From Terriglobia bacterium (GTDB taxonomy: Bacteria; Acidobacteriota; Terriglobia; Terriglobales; Acidobacteriaceae), in NCBI GenBank assembly GCA_020073385.1, contig JAIQFH010000011.1, positions 1-64,000 of the forward strand: DNA of 64,000 nt. Direction: 5' to 3'. Every line of letters starts with the position of its first letter. The first letter of the stretch is position 1. Shown here in pieces: positions 31,992-37,873 of this stretch. The notes beneath the pieces are model-generated. The model saw nothing but the letters and a program-made list of their open reading frames with translations. It was not told the DNA's origin and ran no database searches. Both the position numbers and the translations under genes were made by a program.

Positions 31992-33203
31992 TTAGTACTC
32001 GGGCGCAGTCGCTTTGGCTTCCTCGAACGTAATTCGCTGCTTCTTCTTGTACGACAGGTTCGCCATGTGAACGGCGATGGCGGAGCGGTAACCGATCTCA
32101 ACAGGCGCGTTCGGAGTGCCGCGCGTGCGAATGCAATCGATCCAGTTTTGCATGTGGTTCTGGTTTGGCGTCTTGCCCTTCATCGCCTCGCCGGTGGGAC
32201 GGTTTGTCTTCTCCGGCCAGTATTGTATGGGCTCCTCGAAATGGTGTTCGATGGTTCCGTCGCTGCCCAGGATGCGATCGCCGAGCTCGTAGTGACGGTT
32301 GCTGAAGGTGGACTGCCAGGTCACGACGATATCTTTCGGGAAGTCTAGCGTGACGGCGATCGTGTCGGGGACTTCGCGGCCGTCCTTCTCCGAGAAGACT
32401 CCGCCGGACATGTAAGCAGCCGACGGCAGTGGAAGATCGAGCGCGGACATGATCCAGGCGATCTGGTGAACCATGTTTTCCGCGCAGTTGCCGCCGGAGA
32501 ATTCCCAGAAGAGTCGCCAGTTGATGAACTTGAATCCGTCGAAGGGGCGGTCAGAACGTCCGTTCAGAAAGGCGCTCCACTCGACGTTCTGCGGGATGCA
32601 ATCGGAAGGAACGGGGCGCACCCACTGGCCCTTGCCATGGGGAGTGTTGCGGCTCATCCAGGATTCGACGTGGGCGACCTTGCCGACTGCGCCGTCTTTG
32701 ATGAGTTGTTTGGTGTCGACCAGGGCGCCGGAGCTCTCATGCTGCAAGCCGATCTGCACGACCCGGTCCGAGGCCTTGGCGGCGGCCAGGCATTTGTCGG
32801 CTTCGGGAATCGACCAGGTCATGGTCTTCTCCGAGTAGAGATCCTTTCCTGCAGCAAGCGTATCGAGAAAGTGGCGGGCGTGGATGTGCAGCGGACTGGC
32901 GACAATGACGCCGTCGATGTCTTTCATATCGAGCAGGCGGCGATGATCGCCGAGAGTCTGCATGCCGGGGACCTTGCTCTTGGCCTGGTCACGGCGGCGG
33001 CTATAGACGTCGGCCATGACTACGAGTTCGACGTTCGGGACTTTCACGATCTGATCGAGCAGATCATTTCCGCGGTCTCCTACGCCGATCATGCCAACGC
33101 GCACGCGGTCGTTTGCGCCGAGGACTTTCGAAGAGGGATAGGCGAGTACGGCAGCGCCGATGGCAGCTTGCTTGAGAAAGGTGCGGCGAGTTTGATCGGA
33201 CAT
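31992..33203 (-). CDS. Tat-exported Gfo/Idh/MocA-family oxidoreductase
   Basis: This 403-residue protein starts with a twin-arginine signal (QTRRTFLKQAAIGAAVLAYP). The Rossmann domain follows (VRVGMIGVGDRGNDLLDQIV) with VVMADVYSRRRDQAKSKVPG and DGVIVASPLHIHARHFLDTL; the catalytic-region EKTMTWS takes the place of the usual EKP. The C-terminal part is the beta-sheet substrate domain. Folded export with bound NAD(P) is typical of this subgroup, which acts on sugars or polyols. GGAGG precedes the ATG. It is the second gene after a sugar isomerase, gap 89 bp. Confidence 0.87.
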   Translation of the reverse strand: MSDQTRRTFLKQAAIGAAVLAYPSSKVLGANDRVRVGMIGVGDRGNDLLDQIVKVPNVELVVMADVYSRRRDQAKSKVPGMQTLGDHRRLLDMKDIDGVIVASPLHIHARHFLDTLAAGKDLYSEKTMTWSIPEADKCLAAAKASDRVVQIGLQHESSGALVDTKQLIKDGAVGKVAHVESWMSRNTPHGKGQWVRPVPSDCIPQNVEWSAFLNGRSDRPFDGFKFINWRLFWEFSGGNCAENMVHQIAWIMSALDLPLPSAAYMSGGVFSEKDGREVPDTIAVTLDFPKDIVVTWQSTFSNRHYELGDRILGSDGTIEHHFEEPIQYWPEKTNRPTGEAMKGKTPNQNHMQNWIDCIRTRGTPNAPVEIGYRSAIAVHMANLSYKKKQRITFEEAKATAPEY

Positions 33204-33292: not shown

Positions 33293-34249
33293 CTACAACG
33301 CGTCTGCTTCCTGCAACAGCTTCTTCATTCCTGTCCAGCTTTTGCGCGACGATTCTTCGGGCGTACCTCCGCCATGCCAGTGGGTTTCGAGGCTCACGGC
33401 AAAATGGTAGCCGTCGCGCTTGAGGGCTTTGAACTGTCCAGCCCAGTCGATCATGCCTCCACCCATGGGAGCCCAATCGAATCCCGCGCCTTTCTTCACC
33501 GTGTCTTTGCAGTGGCAATGTCCGATGCGGTCTTTGGGCAGCAGATTGTAGCCATCGGGAAATGGGATCTCGCCACTGGCAGCGGCGTTGCCGGGGTCCC
33601 AGTTCAGCATGAACGAACGCGATTGCACCGCGCTTAGAACCTTCGCGGACTCGGCCCCAGTAGCCGTGTTACACGCGGGCTCGTTTTCCAGAACGAGGAT
33701 GATTCCCTTCTTCTCGGCTTTGGCGGCCGCATCGCGCAGCTTGCCGTTAATGGCATCGCGATAGGGAGCTTGATTCTCGAGGCGCCAGAAATCGAAGCAG
33801 CGCACGCGGTCGGTGCCGAAAGCCTTGGCCATGGCAATGGCGCGGTCGAGGACTTCGTCCTGCTCAGCCAGCGTGAAGCTGGCGTTGAAGCTCTTGGCCT
33901 CGCTGTACTTCGACTTGGGCGCGCCGGGCCAGTCGACCTTGAAGAGGGGGCTGGCGATGTCGGTGACTTTGAGCTGATATTTGTCGAGGAGGCGGCGGGT
34001 TTCCGCGATTTCTTTTTCGTCGAGGCTGACGATGTTCTTGTTCCACATGCCGCGCAGCTCGATCCATCCCATGCCAAATTCCTTCGAGGCCACTTCGCAA
34101 ACGTGACCGAAGTCCTGCCCGATCTCGTCGTTGATCACGGAGACGCGGAATGGAGAGGCGGATTCGCCGAATGCGAAGCGGGAGGTCGCGCTCACAACAG
34201 TCATAGCGGCCATTCCGGCGAGGAAGTCGCGGCGGGGGATTCCGGACAT
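33293..34249 (-). CDS. Tat-exported sugar phosphate isomerase/epimerase (xylose isomerase-like TIM barrel)
   Basis: This 318-residue protein has a Tat signal (GIPRRDFLAGMAAMTVVSAT). The mature part is an AP-endonuclease-2/xylose-isomerase-like TIM barrel: GMGWIELRGMWNKNIVSLDE, IILVLENEPACNTATG (metal-binding Glu), FMLNWDPGNAAASG (Asp) and GHCHCKDTVKKGAGFDW (His), and a final SLETHWHGGG with Glu/His. AAGGAG lies before the ATG. It pairs with the following Gfo/Idh oxidoreductase as a periplasmic sugar-processing unit; the two families often cooperate on inositol or oxidised sugars. The substrate is unknown. Confidence 0.85.
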   Translation of the reverse strand: MSGIPRRDFLAGMAAMTVVSATSRFAFGESASPFRVSVINDEIGQDFGHVCEVASKEFGMGWIELRGMWNKNIVSLDEKEIAETRRLLDKYQLKVTDIASPLFKVDWPGAPKSKYSEAKSFNASFTLAEQDEVLDRAIAMAKAFGTDRVRCFDFWRLENQAPYRDAINGKLRDAAAKAEKKGIILVLENEPACNTATGAESAKVLSAVQSRSFMLNWDPGNAAASGEIPFPDGYNLLPKDRIGHCHCKDTVKKGAGFDWAPMGGGMIDWAGQFKALKRDGYHFAVSLETHWHGGGTPEESSRKSWTGMKKLLQEADAL

Positions 34250-34347: not shown

Positions 34348-34440
34348 GTAGAGACGTTGCTTGCAACGTCTCTGCCGGCGGCGCTCTACACTCAAGGGTC
34401 GCCGGAACTGTCGGCGAGACGTAGCAAGCTACGTCTCTAC
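34348..34440. repeat. Palindromic repeat with GTAGAGACG ends
   Basis: This 93-bp element has perfect 9-bp terminal inverted repeats (GTAGAGACG/CGTCTCTAC) and two internal hairpins, GAGACGTTGC/GCAACGTCTC and GAGACGTAGC/GCTACGTCTC. It is a non-coding REP/MITE-like element. Confidence 0.75.
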
Positions 34441-34469: not shown

Positions 34470-34512
34470 AAAACAAAACGTCCCGGACTCAGTTTGAGTC
34501 CCCAGGACGTTT
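34470..34512 (-). terminator. Rho-independent terminator of small RNA copy 1
   Basis: Outer stem AAACGTCC/GGACGTTT (34505-34512 with 34476-34483) and inner stem GGACTCA/TGAGTCC are followed on the minus strand by TTTTGTTTT. Confidence 0.75.
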
Positions 34513-34608
34513 GCTGATCAGCCCTCCCCCAAGTGCTGCTCAATTGCTAATCTAGTCTTTAACCCCTTATCCCGTAAATGGCCCCTCCGTGCCAGCCATG
34601 GCACGAGG
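34470..34608 (-). ncRNA. Candidate small RNA, copy 1 of 3
   Basis: Read on the minus strand, the unit begins near 34605 with hairpin CGTGCC/GGCACG, continues with a 'ggccattta' block and a highly conserved core (AGCAGCACTTGGGGGAGGGC at about 34519-34538), and ends with a terminator hairpin and a TTTTGTTTT tract at 34470-34478. A TAACTATACC sequence just upstream (34608-34617) could be a -10 element; no good -35 was found. There is no open reading frame common to the copies. Conservation of structure and ends argues for a transcript of about 135 nt. It may belong to a known Acidobacteria-specific RNA motif, which could not be checked. Confidence 0.6.
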
Positions 34609-34681
34609 GTATAGTTACTCGAGATCACGGCAATGCAGCGCCAACTCCGGATGATGAACATGGAATGGAATTCTTGCGCGC

Positions 34682-34723
34682 AAAACAAAACGTCCTGAAC
34701 TCAGTTTGAGTCCCAGGACGTTT
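34682..34723 (-). terminator. Rho-independent terminator of small RNA copy 2
   Basis: Stem AAACGTCCTG/CAGGACGTTT (34714-34723 with 34688-34697), inner ACTCA/TGAGT, then TTTTGTTTT. Compared with copy 1 both sides of the stem changed together, preserving pairing. Confidence 0.78.
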
Positions 34724-34818
34724 GTTGATCAGCCCTCCCCCAAGTGCTGCTCGATTGCTAATGTATGCCCGACCATCAATCCGGTAAATGGCCCCTCCGT
34801 GCTAGGCATGGCACGAGG
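34682..34818 (-). ncRNA. Candidate small RNA, copy 2 of 3
   Basis: Same order as copy 1: 5' hairpin CGTGC/GCACG (34799-34815), the 'ggccatttaccgg' block, the conserved AGCAGCACTTGGGGGAGGGC core and the terminator at 34682-34723. It is closer to copy 1 in the 5' half and to copy 3 in the 'gaatgctaatg' region. The period from copy 1 is 212 bp, although the spacer between them is unrelated to that between copies 2 and 3. Upstream on the minus strand is TTACAC, a weak -10 candidate. Confidence 0.6.
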
Positions 34819-34982
34819 GGTGTAAGGAACTTCTTGCTCCGATCCTTCGCGCTCGGCGAGATGCCCGATATCATGGCAAAAAGTCAAAGTCCCCACCCTG
34901 TCGCACAAAGCGCGACAAGGATGGGGCACCCGATTCATTCTAAGTTAAGATCGCCCTGGACCTGTCGCGGATTTTCGCGCGC

Positions 34983-35022
34983 AAAACAAAACGCCCCAGA
35001 CTCGATTTGAGTCTTGGGACGT
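34983..35022 (-). terminator. Rho-independent terminator of small RNA copy 3
   Basis: Arms ACGTCCCAAGACTC (35009-35022 region, minus) and GAGTCTGGGGCGT (34991-35003) pair with one bulge and one G-U, followed by TTTTGTTTT. The stem sequence differs from copies 1 and 2 on both arms, so pairing is kept by compensatory change. Confidence 0.75.
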
Positions 35023-35118
35023 CTGTTGATCAGCCCTCCCCCAAGTGCTGCTCGATTGCTAATGTATTCCGGACCCCAAATCCGGTAAATGGCTCATCCG
35101 TGCCAGATATGGCACGAA
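34983..35118 (-). ncRNA. Candidate small RNA, copy 3 of 3
   Basis: The most diverged copy: 5' hairpin CGTGCC/GGCACG (35099-35116), a 'ccatttaccggatttggggt' block, the same AGCAGCACTTGGGGGAGGGC core and terminator at 34983-35022. A TATACT at 35124-35129 (minus strand) sits at the right distance to start transcription just before the hairpin. It lies close upstream of the GH42 gene but reads the other way, so it is not that gene's leader. Confidence 0.6.
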
Positions 35119-35249
35119 CGGGTAGTATAGATAACTGCATGAAACTACGGGGCTTCAGCTACGCACCCGTGTTCCCGTCGAAAATCGCTGGAAACCGCTT
35201 GTTGGAAAACAATGGTCCGCGAAGATTTCCACTCATGCCACGAGGACAC

Positions 35250-37340
35250 ATGATCCGAAATCACAGGGTTCTGCTCGCAACTATATTCACTCTTCTCACT
35301 CTTCCACCGATGTTCGCGCAGGCCGTCTTTCGTCCCGACAAGATGGAGACCGTTCTTTATGGCGCCGCCTACTATCCGGAATACATGCCGTATGAGCGTC
35401 TCGATAAAGATGTCGAGTTGATGAAACAGGCCGGCATTTCGGTCGTACGCATGGGCGAATCCAGTTGGGGATTGTGGGAGCCGGAAGACGGGCGCTTCGA
35501 GTACGCGTGGATGGACCGCGTGGTCGAGCAGATGCACAAGGCTGGCATCAAGGTCATCATGGGCACGCCAACGTATTCCATTCCGGCGTGGATGTACAAG
35601 AAGCATCCCGAGATCGTGATGACAAAACTCGATGGCCACACGATCACCTATGGCATGCGGCAGAATGCCGATTTGCTGAATCCCACGTACCGATTCTATT
35701 GCGAGCGCATCATTCGTAACCTCGCAGAGCATTACAAGGACAACCCCGCCGTCATCGGATGGCAGATCGACAACGAGACGCCCCCGGGCGGGGCCGCCAA
35801 CAAAGACATCCAGGATGGATTCGTCGAGTATCTGCAACACAAGTTCAAGACGGTCGACGAACTGAACAAGAATTGGGGGCTGAATTACTGGGGCCAGCGG
35901 CTGAACGACTGGACGGAGATTCCTCCGCAGGCCGGAATTCTCAACCCGGGATGGAAGCTTGAATGGACGCGCTACTCGCAGTGGATCACGACCGACTTTC
36001 TGGCGTGGCAAGCAGGGCTGGTGAATCAGTACAAGCGTCCGGATCAGTTCGTCACGCAAGATTTTGCGGGACCGCCGCGGCCTGAGGTCAACGAAAATGA
36101 TATCTCGAAGAGTCTCGACATTGTTGCCGCCAATCCTTATCACGGCACACAGGACGAGTTCGACGGCGAGGGTTCGTCGTACGAGGGCGATTACAGCCGC
36201 TCGCTGAAGCACACGAACTACCTCATCACGGAAACGAATGCGGACACGATCGGGTGGGATTCGAAGAATCAGTATCCGCCCTACGACGGCCAGTTGAGGC
36301 TAGACGTATACACGCACCTCTCCTCGGGCGCGAACATGGTCGAGTACTGGCACTGGCATTCGATTCAATACGGACAGGAAACCTACTGGAAAGGCATCCT
36401 CGGTCACGATCTGGAGCCCGGGCGGCCCTATCAGGAGATGAGCAAGACGGCGCACGAATTGCGCCGCATCGGGCCGCAGATTGCGAATCTAAAACGCACC
36501 AGTCCAGTCGCCATCCTGTACAGCTCCGACTCGTACTGGGGCATCGAGTTCATGAAGTTCAACGACCACGACAATTACCGGACGATCCTGAAGCAGATGT
36601 ACCACGTGCTCTACGAGAGCAACGTCGGCATCGACTTCGTGTTTCCCGACAGCACGAATTTTTCGGATTACAAGGTGATCGTGGTGCCGCCGCTGTACGT
36701 AGCCACCGACGCTCTTCTGAACAAGCTGGTCGATTACGTGCGCAATGGCGGACATCTGGTAATGGCGTTCAAAAGCGGATTCACCAACGAATTCGATACG
36801 GTGCGCTGGACTACGATGCCCGGTCCGCTTCGCGAGGCTGCTGGATTCCACTATCAGGAGTTTTCCAATCTGCGTCAGCCTCTGGCGCTCAAGGGCGATC
36901 CCTTTCATGCCGTGGACGGCAACAAGGTCTCTGATTGGGCGGAGATGCTCACCGTGGATACCGCCGAGCCCATCGCGTTCTACGATCACCCTTTCTTCGG
37001 GAAGTATCCCGCGATTACCCGGAATTCCTTCGGAAAAGGAAGCCTTACGTACGAGGGAACGGTGTTATCGGATGCGCTGCAGACGAAGGTCATTCTGCAG
37101 GTTCTGCAGCGGGCCGGGGTCGCTGGGCCGGACCAGAACCTTCCGGCGAGTGTGCGTGCGAAGCATGGAACGAATCGCAACGGAAAGACGGTACATTACT
37201 ACCTGAACTATTCGAGCGATCCGCAGACGTTTACCTATTCGTACGGGGCCGGGACGGAGTTACTGACACAAGTGGCCGTTACACAATCGCAGAAGATCAC
37301 CGTAAAGGCCTGGGACTTGATTCTGATCGAGGAAAAATAG
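35250..37340 (+). CDS. Secreted glycoside hydrolase family 42 beta-galactosidase-like enzyme
   Basis: From the ATG at 35250 (GAGGA just upstream; ATG 35235 is an alternative) it is 696 residues with a signal peptide (RVLLATIFTLLTLPPMFAQA). The TIM barrel opens YGAAYYPEYMPYERLDKDVE with SVVRMGESSWGLWEPEDGRF. The acid/base glutamate is in GWQIDNETP (about residue 175) and the likely nucleophile in LITETNADTIGWD (about 327). The trimerisation (glutamine-amidotransferase-like) domain follows, with VDYVRNGGHLVMAFKSGFTN. It should release galactose or related sugars from plant-type oligosaccharides outside the cytoplasm. It lies across the small-RNA region from the Tat-exported sugar genes. Confidence 0.88.
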   Translation: MIRNHRVLLATIFTLLTLPPMFAQAVFRPDKMETVLYGAAYYPEYMPYERLDKDVELMKQAGISVVRMGESSWGLWEPEDGRFEYAWMDRVVEQMHKAGIKVIMGTPTYSIPAWMYKKHPEIVMTKLDGHTITYGMRQNADLLNPTYRFYCERIIRNLAEHYKDNPAVIGWQIDNETPPGGAANKDIQDGFVEYLQHKFKTVDELNKNWGLNYWGQRLNDWTEIPPQAGILNPGWKLEWTRYSQWITTDFLAWQAGLVNQYKRPDQFVTQDFAGPPRPEVNENDISKSLDIVAANPYHGTQDEFDGEGSSYEGDYSRSLKHTNYLITETNADTIGWDSKNQYPPYDGQLRLDVYTHLSSGANMVEYWHWHSIQYGQETYWKGILGHDLEPGRPYQEMSKTAHELRRIGPQIANLKRTSPVAILYSSDSYWGIEFMKFNDHDNYRTILKQMYHVLYESNVGIDFVFPDSTNFSDYKVIVVPPLYVATDALLNKLVDYVRNGGHLVMAFKSGFTNEFDTVRWTTMPGPLREAAGFHYQEFSNLRQPLALKGDPFHAVDGNKVSDWAEMLTVDTAEPIAFYDHPFFGKYPAITRNSFGKGSLTYEGTVLSDALQTKVILQVLQRAGVAGPDQNLPASVRAKHGTNRNGKTVHYYLNYSSDPQTFTYSYGAGTELLTQVAVTQSQKITVKAWDLILIEEK

Positions 37341-37797: not shown

Positions 37798-37873
37798 TGG
37801 AGCCGACGAGCGGACTTGAACCGCTGACCTGCCGATTACGAATCGGCTGCTCTACCAACTGAGCTACGTCGGC
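37798..37873 (-). tRNA. tRNA-Thr (anticodon CGT)
   Basis: The minus strand folds into a full cloverleaf: acceptor GCCGACG pairing with the 3' CGTCGGC, D-arm GCTCAGTTGGTAGAGC, anticodon arm CCGAT-loop-ATCGG with loop TTCGTAA giving anticodon CGT (codon ACG), and T-arm with GGTTCAAGTCC. CCA is encoded (37798-37800). Length 76 nt. Confidence 0.95.

Follow-up and report, generated by a model that had tools for sequence, protein, structure and literature searches.

What kind of element is repeated three times in tandem between two divergent genes of the window (the whole stretch of acidobacterial DNA that was analysed, 64,000 nucleotides long), and what could it act upon? The initial annotation, drawn up from the letters alone, had read the repeats as independently transcribed small RNAs, each with a 5' hairpin, a near-invariant core and a terminator, and had pointed to the sugar-catabolic genes nearby.

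Three structured units on the minus strand

Matches to covariance models coincide with three minus-strand units of 140-143 nt at the coordinates originally claimed (Table 1). The 26-nt core GAGCAGCACTTGGGGGAGGGCTGATC is identical in all three units, and the terminator stems do differ in sequence while remaining paired (ACGUCCU/AGGACGU in copy 2 versus ACGUCCC/GGGGCGU in copy 3). Copy 3 shares 94% identity over 172 nt with a copy in another genome (G034).

Table 1. Coordinates of the units, their substructures and the neighbouring genes in the window.
Feature	Position	Strand	Evidence or remark
sRNA unit copy 3, type I, first in transcription direction	34983..35123	-	R1 156.8 bits, R2 133.2 bits
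sRNA unit copy 2, type I	34682..34822	-	R1 138.5 bits
sRNA unit copy 1, type I	34470..34612	-	R1 135.6 bits
Core hairpin P2, copy 3, G-rich tip	35028..35053	-	GAGCAGC-A-CUU-GGGG-GAG-G-GCUGAUC; exact core; stem pairing retained across types
Core hairpin P2, copy 2	34727..34752	-	exact core
Core hairpin P2, copy 1	34516..34541	-	exact core
Terminator hairpin P3 and U-rich tail, copy 3	34983..35022	-	
Terminator hairpin P3 and U-rich tail, copy 2	34682..34721	-	
Terminator hairpin P3 and U-rich tail, copy 1	34470..34510	-	
5' hairpin CGTGCC/GGCACG, copy 3	35099..35116	-	not general in the RNA family
5' hairpin CGTGCC/GGCACG, copy 2	34798..34815	-	
5' hairpin CGTGCC/GGCACG, copy 1	34588..34605	-	
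Xylose-isomerase-like TIM-barrel protein (PF01261), 318 aa; downstream neighbour, same strand	33293..34249	-	Pfam 103.6 bits
Gfo/Idh/MocA oxidoreductase, 403 aa; next gene	31992..33203	-	Pfam PF01408 51.1 bits
Divergent upstream gene (GH42 according to the initial annotation)	35250..37340	+	start chosen by inspection

Both strands of the units fold better than their shuffled counterparts (z-scores of -3.43, -3.25 and -4.74 on the minus strand and of -5.49, -4.73 and -3.76 on the plus strand), so that folding by itself leaves the strand undecided. The assignment to the minus strand follows from the T-rich tail and from comparisons with other genomes. With a simple scanner the three units gave no promoter-like site (the only one of the region is at 35260, plus strand) and the region gave no terminator-like site; we think that the latter result is explained by its stem rule, which absorbs the T tract (AACA/UGUU).

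The statement that the units share no reading frame holds for copy 1, but copies 2 and 3 have in common a plus-strand frame that runs for about 47 codons without a stop. Coding is nevertheless argued against by the absence of that frame from copy 1 and by the indels of 1-2 nt that distinguish the aligned family members. The listed 777-aa ORF of the divergent gene begins at a TTG (35007) inside copy 3 and thus runs antisense over that copy; the ATG at 35250, with its signal-peptide-like start, is the likelier start of the gene. Between the array and the TIM-barrel gene lies a 25-nt inverted repeat (GTAGAGACGTTGCTTGCAACGTCTC, 34348-34372 and 34416-34440), the arms of which are 92% complementary and 43 nt apart; it resembles a separate repeat element.

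Core types and covariation

On basis of the core sequence the 112 fetched copies were divided into 72 of type I (GAGCAGCACUUGGGGGAGGG), 22 of type III (CAGUUCUGGGGGAGGG), 12 of type II (CAGACUUCGGGGGAGG or CAGCUUUCGGGGGAGG) and 6 others. The members found in other genera (type A) have the same CAGUUCUGGGGGAGGG as type III, with an outer stem that is longer and changes between members (GGGCAG/CUGCUC, CGGCAG/CUGCCG, AAGCAG/CUGCUU). In 109 of the 112 copies the sequence fits a core hairpin whose tip is GGGG or GGGGG, with 9-11 of the 10-11 pairs being standard; the stem varies with retention of pairing and the G-rich tip GGGGGAGGG is constant. Of the three exceptions, L121 lacks the core, and L141 and L142 have another hairpin with a GGGG tip. 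In the last two (L141 2994-3150 and L142 2500-2654) the core hairpin is replaced by the longer GAACAUUCGGGGAUGUUC. The 5' hairpin pattern CGTGCC/GGCACG, though present in all three window units as described in the initial annotation, is not a general feature of the family, since it fits 20/72 copies of type I, 4/22 of type III, 0/12 of type II and 1/6 of the others.

In an alignment of 105 sequences the covariation score was 0.174 as compared to 0.120 in shuffled alignments, and none of 500 shuffles scored as high. In the same alignment 90.8% of the cells pair (98.9% and 96.7% in the helices of the P3 terminator) and 10 of the 25 pairs show two-sided change, against 6.7 in the shuffles. The core hairpin was also considered separately, for 38 hairpins of types A and III: the score was 0.176 versus 0.125 (0/500 shuffles) with 95.8% of the cells paired, and 3 pairs with two-sided change versus 1.7, a number reached by 64 of the 500 shuffles. 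With respect to the alignments used, A4 omits six copies of other core types and L080, A6 contains three misaligned four-G rows that were counted against the helix, and A2 was built from strong blastn matches, so that the invariance of the core in it is partly a matter of selection. The 3' strand of the core hairpin, GGGGGAGGGCUG, is almost constant while its partner strand changes, which points to a second, sequence-specific contact. Taken together, the units and their relatives almost certainly constitute a real RNA family.

Distribution and copy number

A comparison of the window with Rfam 15 at gathering score yielded a single match, a tRNA (37801-37873, minus strand), and nothing in the units; 6S RNA (RF00013) has no match on the window. 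At E-values up to 10, the 951 nt around the units matched only miRNA models, all of them outside the units. Scans of 14 paralogue loci gave only tRNAs and tRNA-Sec, and those of 16 loci on the type A side one tRNA and one 6S RNA, both away from the family member. The 6S RNA (57.4 bits, L164 2845-3035) belongs to G163, and the family member there lies at a distance of about 1 kb. The units thus match no Rfam family, including Acido-1, the comparison with which had been proposed in the initial annotation. Acido-1 (RF01686) and Acido-Lenti-1 (RF01687) resemble the present family in being structured RNAs of Acidobacteria that were classed as not cis-regulatory, according to the part of the original description considered here (PMC2864571); their models match neither the units nor the paralogue and type A loci scanned. 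No paper on this RNA family was found in the open-access literature searched. Without a match in Rfam 15, it is a new family of a known kind, with an ancestral type A and with types I-III in the genus of the window.

By nucleotide search, the assembly to which the window belongs (G000, 8.23 Mb) contains five strong copies, i.e. the three units, C6:5201 and C78:12161. The same search in 61 genomes produced a match in 35, all within one genus (35 of its 37 genomes, the window's own included, and 0 of the 24 outside). A covariance model made from 36 strong matches (R1), the kind of search that had also been proposed, showed recurrence in all 45 genomes of the genus that were searched, with 1-15 matches per genome. 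The claim that the RNA is multicopy is therefore borne out within the genus. Counting all copies with a G-rich core, G000 holds seven: five of type I, one of type III (C6:101512) and one of type A (C17:25056). Another match, C128:507044 (29.5 bits), lacks the G-rich core and was not counted.

On a broader scale, R1 matched 126 of 397 genomes sampled in the order, belonging to 43 of 80 genera. The exact 20-nt core was found in 63 stretches among 84,980 one-per-species genomes; all 63 are titled acidobacterial, many of them 'Candidatus Sulfotelmatobacter', and all 63 match R1 as well. A broader model made from 105 sequences (R2) matched, at an E-value of 1e-4, 72 of the 399 genomes that had been sampled in the class (30 of 135 genera), and 71 of these 72 belong to the family of the window. 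Because strict filters were applied in both large searches, the counts are lower bounds for weak members. G559, a genome outside the family (31.8 bits), is a doubtful member as its match has no clear core. Among members of the family outside the genus, R2 found one match in 57 of 65 genomes, the weakest being near the threshold and uncertain.

Messages of OmpA-like proteins as candidate partners

As the tip is G-rich, C-rich partners were looked for. The lead that emerged was post hoc: three genomes of the genus were scanned for CCTCCCC closely followed by a run of T, which yielded few places and hit counts that hardly exceeded those of a backward control. Recurrent in all three genomes was a terminator hairpin with CCUCCCCC in the loop, located in the 3'UTR of a gene for an OmpA-like lipoprotein; in two of the three UCCCUCCCCC preceded the terminator of a second OmpA-like gene. 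Both genes carry PF00691 and are referred to as OmpA1 and OmpA2. OmpA-like genes were then taken from 15 more genomes, and the best gene per genome and 22 further ones were examined.

Within the genus, a 3'UTR complement of at least 8 nt (8-11 nt) was present in 7/7 OmpA1 and 6/6 OmpA2 genes from seven genomes, and four of the six OmpA2 sites are CCCUCCCCCAG, a perfect 11-nt complement of the tip of types III and A. As background, an 8-mer complement occurs in the 3'UTR of 5 out of 649 genes of G000 and a 9-mer complement in none. None of the 22 further OmpA-like genes (14 in the genus, 8 outside) has a 3'UTR complement of at least 8 nt, so the site does not simply go with being an OmpA gene.

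In other genera the sites are patchy. Sites of 9-10 nt were found in the 3'UTR of 5 of the 21 OmpA genes (G134, G163, G092, G142 and G105), sites of 11-12 nt within the coding region of OmpA2 in G134, G163, G146 and G127, and a 9-nt site near the start of OmpA1 in G117; G158, G137 and G161 (3 of the 18 genomes) have no OmpA site of at least 8 nt. L346, the second weak OmpA-like match of G137, falls outside the 21-gene set and inside the set of 22. Considering sites of at least 9 nt anywhere in the transcript, 8 of the 21 OmpA genes have one as compared to 17 of 582 genes in G000 (Fisher 3.8e-7), and as compared to 7 of 83 genes in other genera (Fisher 0.0020), which is a high background. Moreover, Pro and Ser codons abound in the OmpA2 coding regions, so that chance matches become more frequent.

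In some cases tip and site appear to match each other in length. G142 and G105 have a four-G tip and an OmpA1 3'UTR (CCCUCCCCAG) that pairs over 10 nt with their own tip and over 8 nt with a five-G tip, whereas the OmpA2 sites of G000, G011, G012 and G035 pair over 11 nt with a five-G tip and over 8 nt with a four-G tip. The combination of four G and four C comes from one genus and perhaps from one event. A four-G tip is also present in G088 of genus g25 (L191). The 3'UTR matches of G134 and G163 lie within a terminator, the loop of which differs from genus to genus.

In terms of duplex energy, OmpA2 ranks 3rd (type A), 4th (type III) and 11th (type I) among 650 genes of G000. OmpA1 ranks 5th, 43rd and 73rd, respectively, and would thus not have been picked on basis of the energy in a single genome. 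Dinucleotide-shuffled 3'UTRs reach the run of OmpA1 in 0.7-15% of cases, by which measure its sites are modest in several genomes.

Further matches were seen outside the 3'UTRs. Inspection by eye of the 5'UTR of OmpA2 in G011, G007 and G035 showed CUCCCCCAA just before the Shine-Dalgarno (SD) sequence, a 9-nt complement of UUGGGGGAG in type I; the site is shorter in G000 (CUCCCCAA) and absent in G019. The C-rich strand of CUCCCCCAAACUUGGAGGA, located upstream of the OmpA2 start in L333, L334 and L299, could cover the SD sequence, which a type I sRNA could then free. The 9-mer CTCCCCCAG occurs in the upstream or coding part, not the 3'UTR, of a further, larger OmpA-like gene (L350, L357 and L359 of G000, G011 and G007).

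These comparisons give the two OmpA messages about an even chance of being direct partners of the family. A same-anatomy family of trans-acting sRNAs could have other RNAs as its real partners, either other mRNAs or C-rich anti-SD sRNAs that are sponged, with the OmpA sites being coincidental or minor. All evidence for the RNA itself fits such partners equally, OmpA1 does not give one of the top duplexes in G000 and the sites are missing in the three genomes mentioned. A precedent is found in Caulobacter, where, going by the excerpted account (PMC12559287), SisA-D are sibling sRNAs with a shared anti-SD motif and CrfA is their sponge; a sponge of that motif would resemble a G-rich RNA. Unlike in that system, the C-rich partners found here are the 3'UTRs of OmpA-like genes, and no C-rich sibling sRNA was identified. 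The two recurring matches of the partner search being two paralogous OmpA-like genes, while further OmpA-like genes have no sites, speaks against other partners, which we consider possible but less likely than OmpA1 and OmpA2.

Genomic context

In other genera the copy often occupies one conserved place, between thrB and trxA. By tblastn, 23 of 39 loci carry trxA downstream in the same orientation (within 420 nt in 21 of them), and thrC and thrB lie upstream in 16 of 39; in many loci trxA is followed by lexA. Within the genus of the window the type A copy retains the trxA-lexA side in L184, L185, L186, L178 and L188. Across L158-L176, many trxA genes share, after the terminator of the sRNA, a promoter-like TTGCGAC about 16 nt before GCATCTAT (by eye). 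Away from thrB-trxA, G163 has type I-like copies (L164, L165, L180 and L181) in which the stem has changed to GAGUAG/CUACU and is still paired.

The other types occupy other homes. Both neighbours are on the opposite strand in 18 of the 22 type III copies; examples are a PAS-GGDEF gene upstream (10 copies) with a TonB-C gene downstream (5), and PEP-CTERM (5) with a cNMP-binding gene (6). Of the type I copies, 18/72 have the TIM-barrel gene downstream on the same strand, as in the window, and these represent fewer loci because the copies are in tandem in the window and in two relatives; 12/72 lie 31-59 nt after an NAPRTase gene and 5 before an SH3-like gene. By a crude gene caller, 8 of the 112 copies had their centre within a predicted ORF of 130 aa or more. 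The association with sugar-catabolic genes is thus correct for the window's locus and too narrow for the family, which also has the NAPRTase and thrB-trxA sites. The conserved loci support vertical inheritance and a stand-alone gene, with the sugar link being local. Judged by the orientation of the neighbours, the copies of type III mostly stand alone, whereas types I and A are mixed or on the same strand.

The same-strand neighbours and the terminator at the end of the unit would also suit a cis-acting leader or attenuator, riboswitch-like, of which the terminator controls the next gene and which was copied before several genes: trxA follows in 23 of the 39 loci and the TIM-barrel gene in 18 of the 72 type I copies. 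The orientation of type III argues against a cis riboswitch, as do the downstream genes, which are unrelated between the several loci that carry copies, and trxA has its own conserved promoter-like motif past the terminator (TTGCGAC...CATCTAT, by eye). We therefore regard a cis-acting role as unlikely. A mobile element or passive intergenic repeat that has no function as an RNA would agree with up to 15 model matches per genome and with the different insertion sites, but is highly improbable in view of the inheritance at fixed loci (thrB-trxA; NAPRTase, 12; PAS-GGDEF, 10), the covarying helices, a tip that stays fixed amid fast-changing surroundings and the absence of exact core matches (two patterns) from viral contigs, which also gives no sign of a phage or virus origin. 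Covariation and conserved loci thus support the original description of the units as structured RNAs ending in terminators rather than a passive repeat.

Start sites, 16S rRNA and other possible targets

The initial annotation had noted that the core resembles an SD sequence and might pair with C-rich RNA. Support for the latter comes from the OmpA-like 3'UTRs, but targeting of start sites in general is unsupported. The complement of the tip was not enriched at the start sites of 645 genes of G000, whereas GGAGG, the positive control, was (2.07 versus 0.93 per kb antisense). In 434 deduplicated genes of the fetched loci, 7-mers outnumbered their reversed controls in start regions (67 versus 28; 68 versus 51 on the antisense strand) and within genes (291 versus 223; 313 versus 153 antisense). 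Because this excess is equal on the antisense strand and enrichment in G000 is lacking, generic start-site targeting was rejected. The pyrG leader was also rejected as a target, since the complementary site of G092 and G119 is absent from the other 18 of 20 pyrG leaders. For the 11-mer AGCCCTCCCCC 40 regions were fetched, of which roughly 12, in G092, are copies of one repeated ORF read antisense.

The tip does contain GGAGG, and the duplex of type I with the 16S tail amounts to -15.9 kcal/mol. The tip (GGGGGAGG) might accordingly mimic the SD sequence, bind the 16S 3' end and lower translation globally. However, relative to the folded RNA the gain is -5.5 in type I, -0.7 in type III and 0.0 both in type II and in the three cores of type A, as compared to -8.7 for a plain SD sequence, and the conservation extends past the SD-like part (GGGGGAGGGCUG). 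The SD resemblance therefore stands as such, with pairing to the 16S 3' end weakly supported in types I and III and unsupported in the other core types tested, and a ribosome-directed role is very hard to uphold.

Proposed mechanism and relation to known systems

We propose that each unit specifies an RNA of about 140 nt that consists of a small 5' hairpin, a variable spacer, the core hairpin with its G-rich tip and the terminator. The members of the family very probably act in trans. The RNA, once transcribed, would probably do so with Hfq, and its tip would base-pair with a small number of mRNAs at C-rich sites. Foremost among the candidates are the mRNAs of OmpA1 and OmpA2, mainly at the 3'UTR, where the sites flank the terminator hairpin or lie within it. 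This pairing may alter the stability of these mRNAs, or the 3' end of the OmpA mRNA may serve as a sponge for the sRNA. For this explanation as a whole, sibling sRNAs whose tip pairs in trans with the OmpA1 and OmpA2 mRNAs, we estimate a probability of roughly 0.5. G000 does encode Hfq (PF17209, 95.2 bits at G000:C29, and two weaker matches over the cut-off). CsrA (PF02599) was not found in this one genome, the control being positive in 3 of 14, and an RNA that titrates CsrA (of the RsmY/Z or CsrB type) was rejected for that reason.

Enterobacterial Hfq-dependent sRNAs, e.g. MicA and OmrA/B, target omp mRNAs by pairing near the start codon. The present family is like them in its terminators and in its candidate omp targets, and differs in that the sites are mostly in the 3'UTR. 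In the sibling sRNAs of Neisseria (NmsR), homologous sRNAs are likewise found in tandem in one intergenic region; as far as the excerpted report goes (PMC5362039), these are present in two copies, carry anti-SD motifs and have proven targets, whereas the window has three tandem copies with a G-rich tip and candidate targets. A closer likeness in architecture is offered by the alpha-r14/NfeR1 (cuckoo) sRNAs of alpha-proteobacteria, described in the sections consulted of (PMC10746234) as trans-acting RNAs with an ultraconserved loop motif and stems that differ. Their motif is the anti-SD sequence CCUCCUCCC, directed against G-rich start sites; the acidobacterial family has the opposite, G-rich tip, once per RNA, and shows no start-site enrichment.

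This comparison leads to a more specific picture, which we put forward tentatively: the family could be a mirror image of the anti-SD sRNAs, in which an ultraconserved G-rich tip reads the C-rich 3' ends of two omp mRNAs through a loop-loop or loop-linker contact by the terminator. Tip and sites would change together (five G with five C, four G with four C), and the thrB-trxA copy would have multiplied in the genus, with dosage and promoters tuning the synthesis of envelope proteins. Such a mirror image would make the family a variant of known loop-seed sRNAs. In addition, if the pairing with OmpA is real, it would represent target recognition at the 3' ends of mRNAs with visible co-variation of both RNAs.

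In the table of a review, as far as it was available to us, only four distinct annotated sRNAs are given for Acidobacteria (PMC9029176). Acidobacteria are abundant in soil, and the present analysis adds a conserved, structured and sometimes multicopy RNA family that is spread over much of one of their families and has a testable partner. The single-copy relatives make this family open to experiment.
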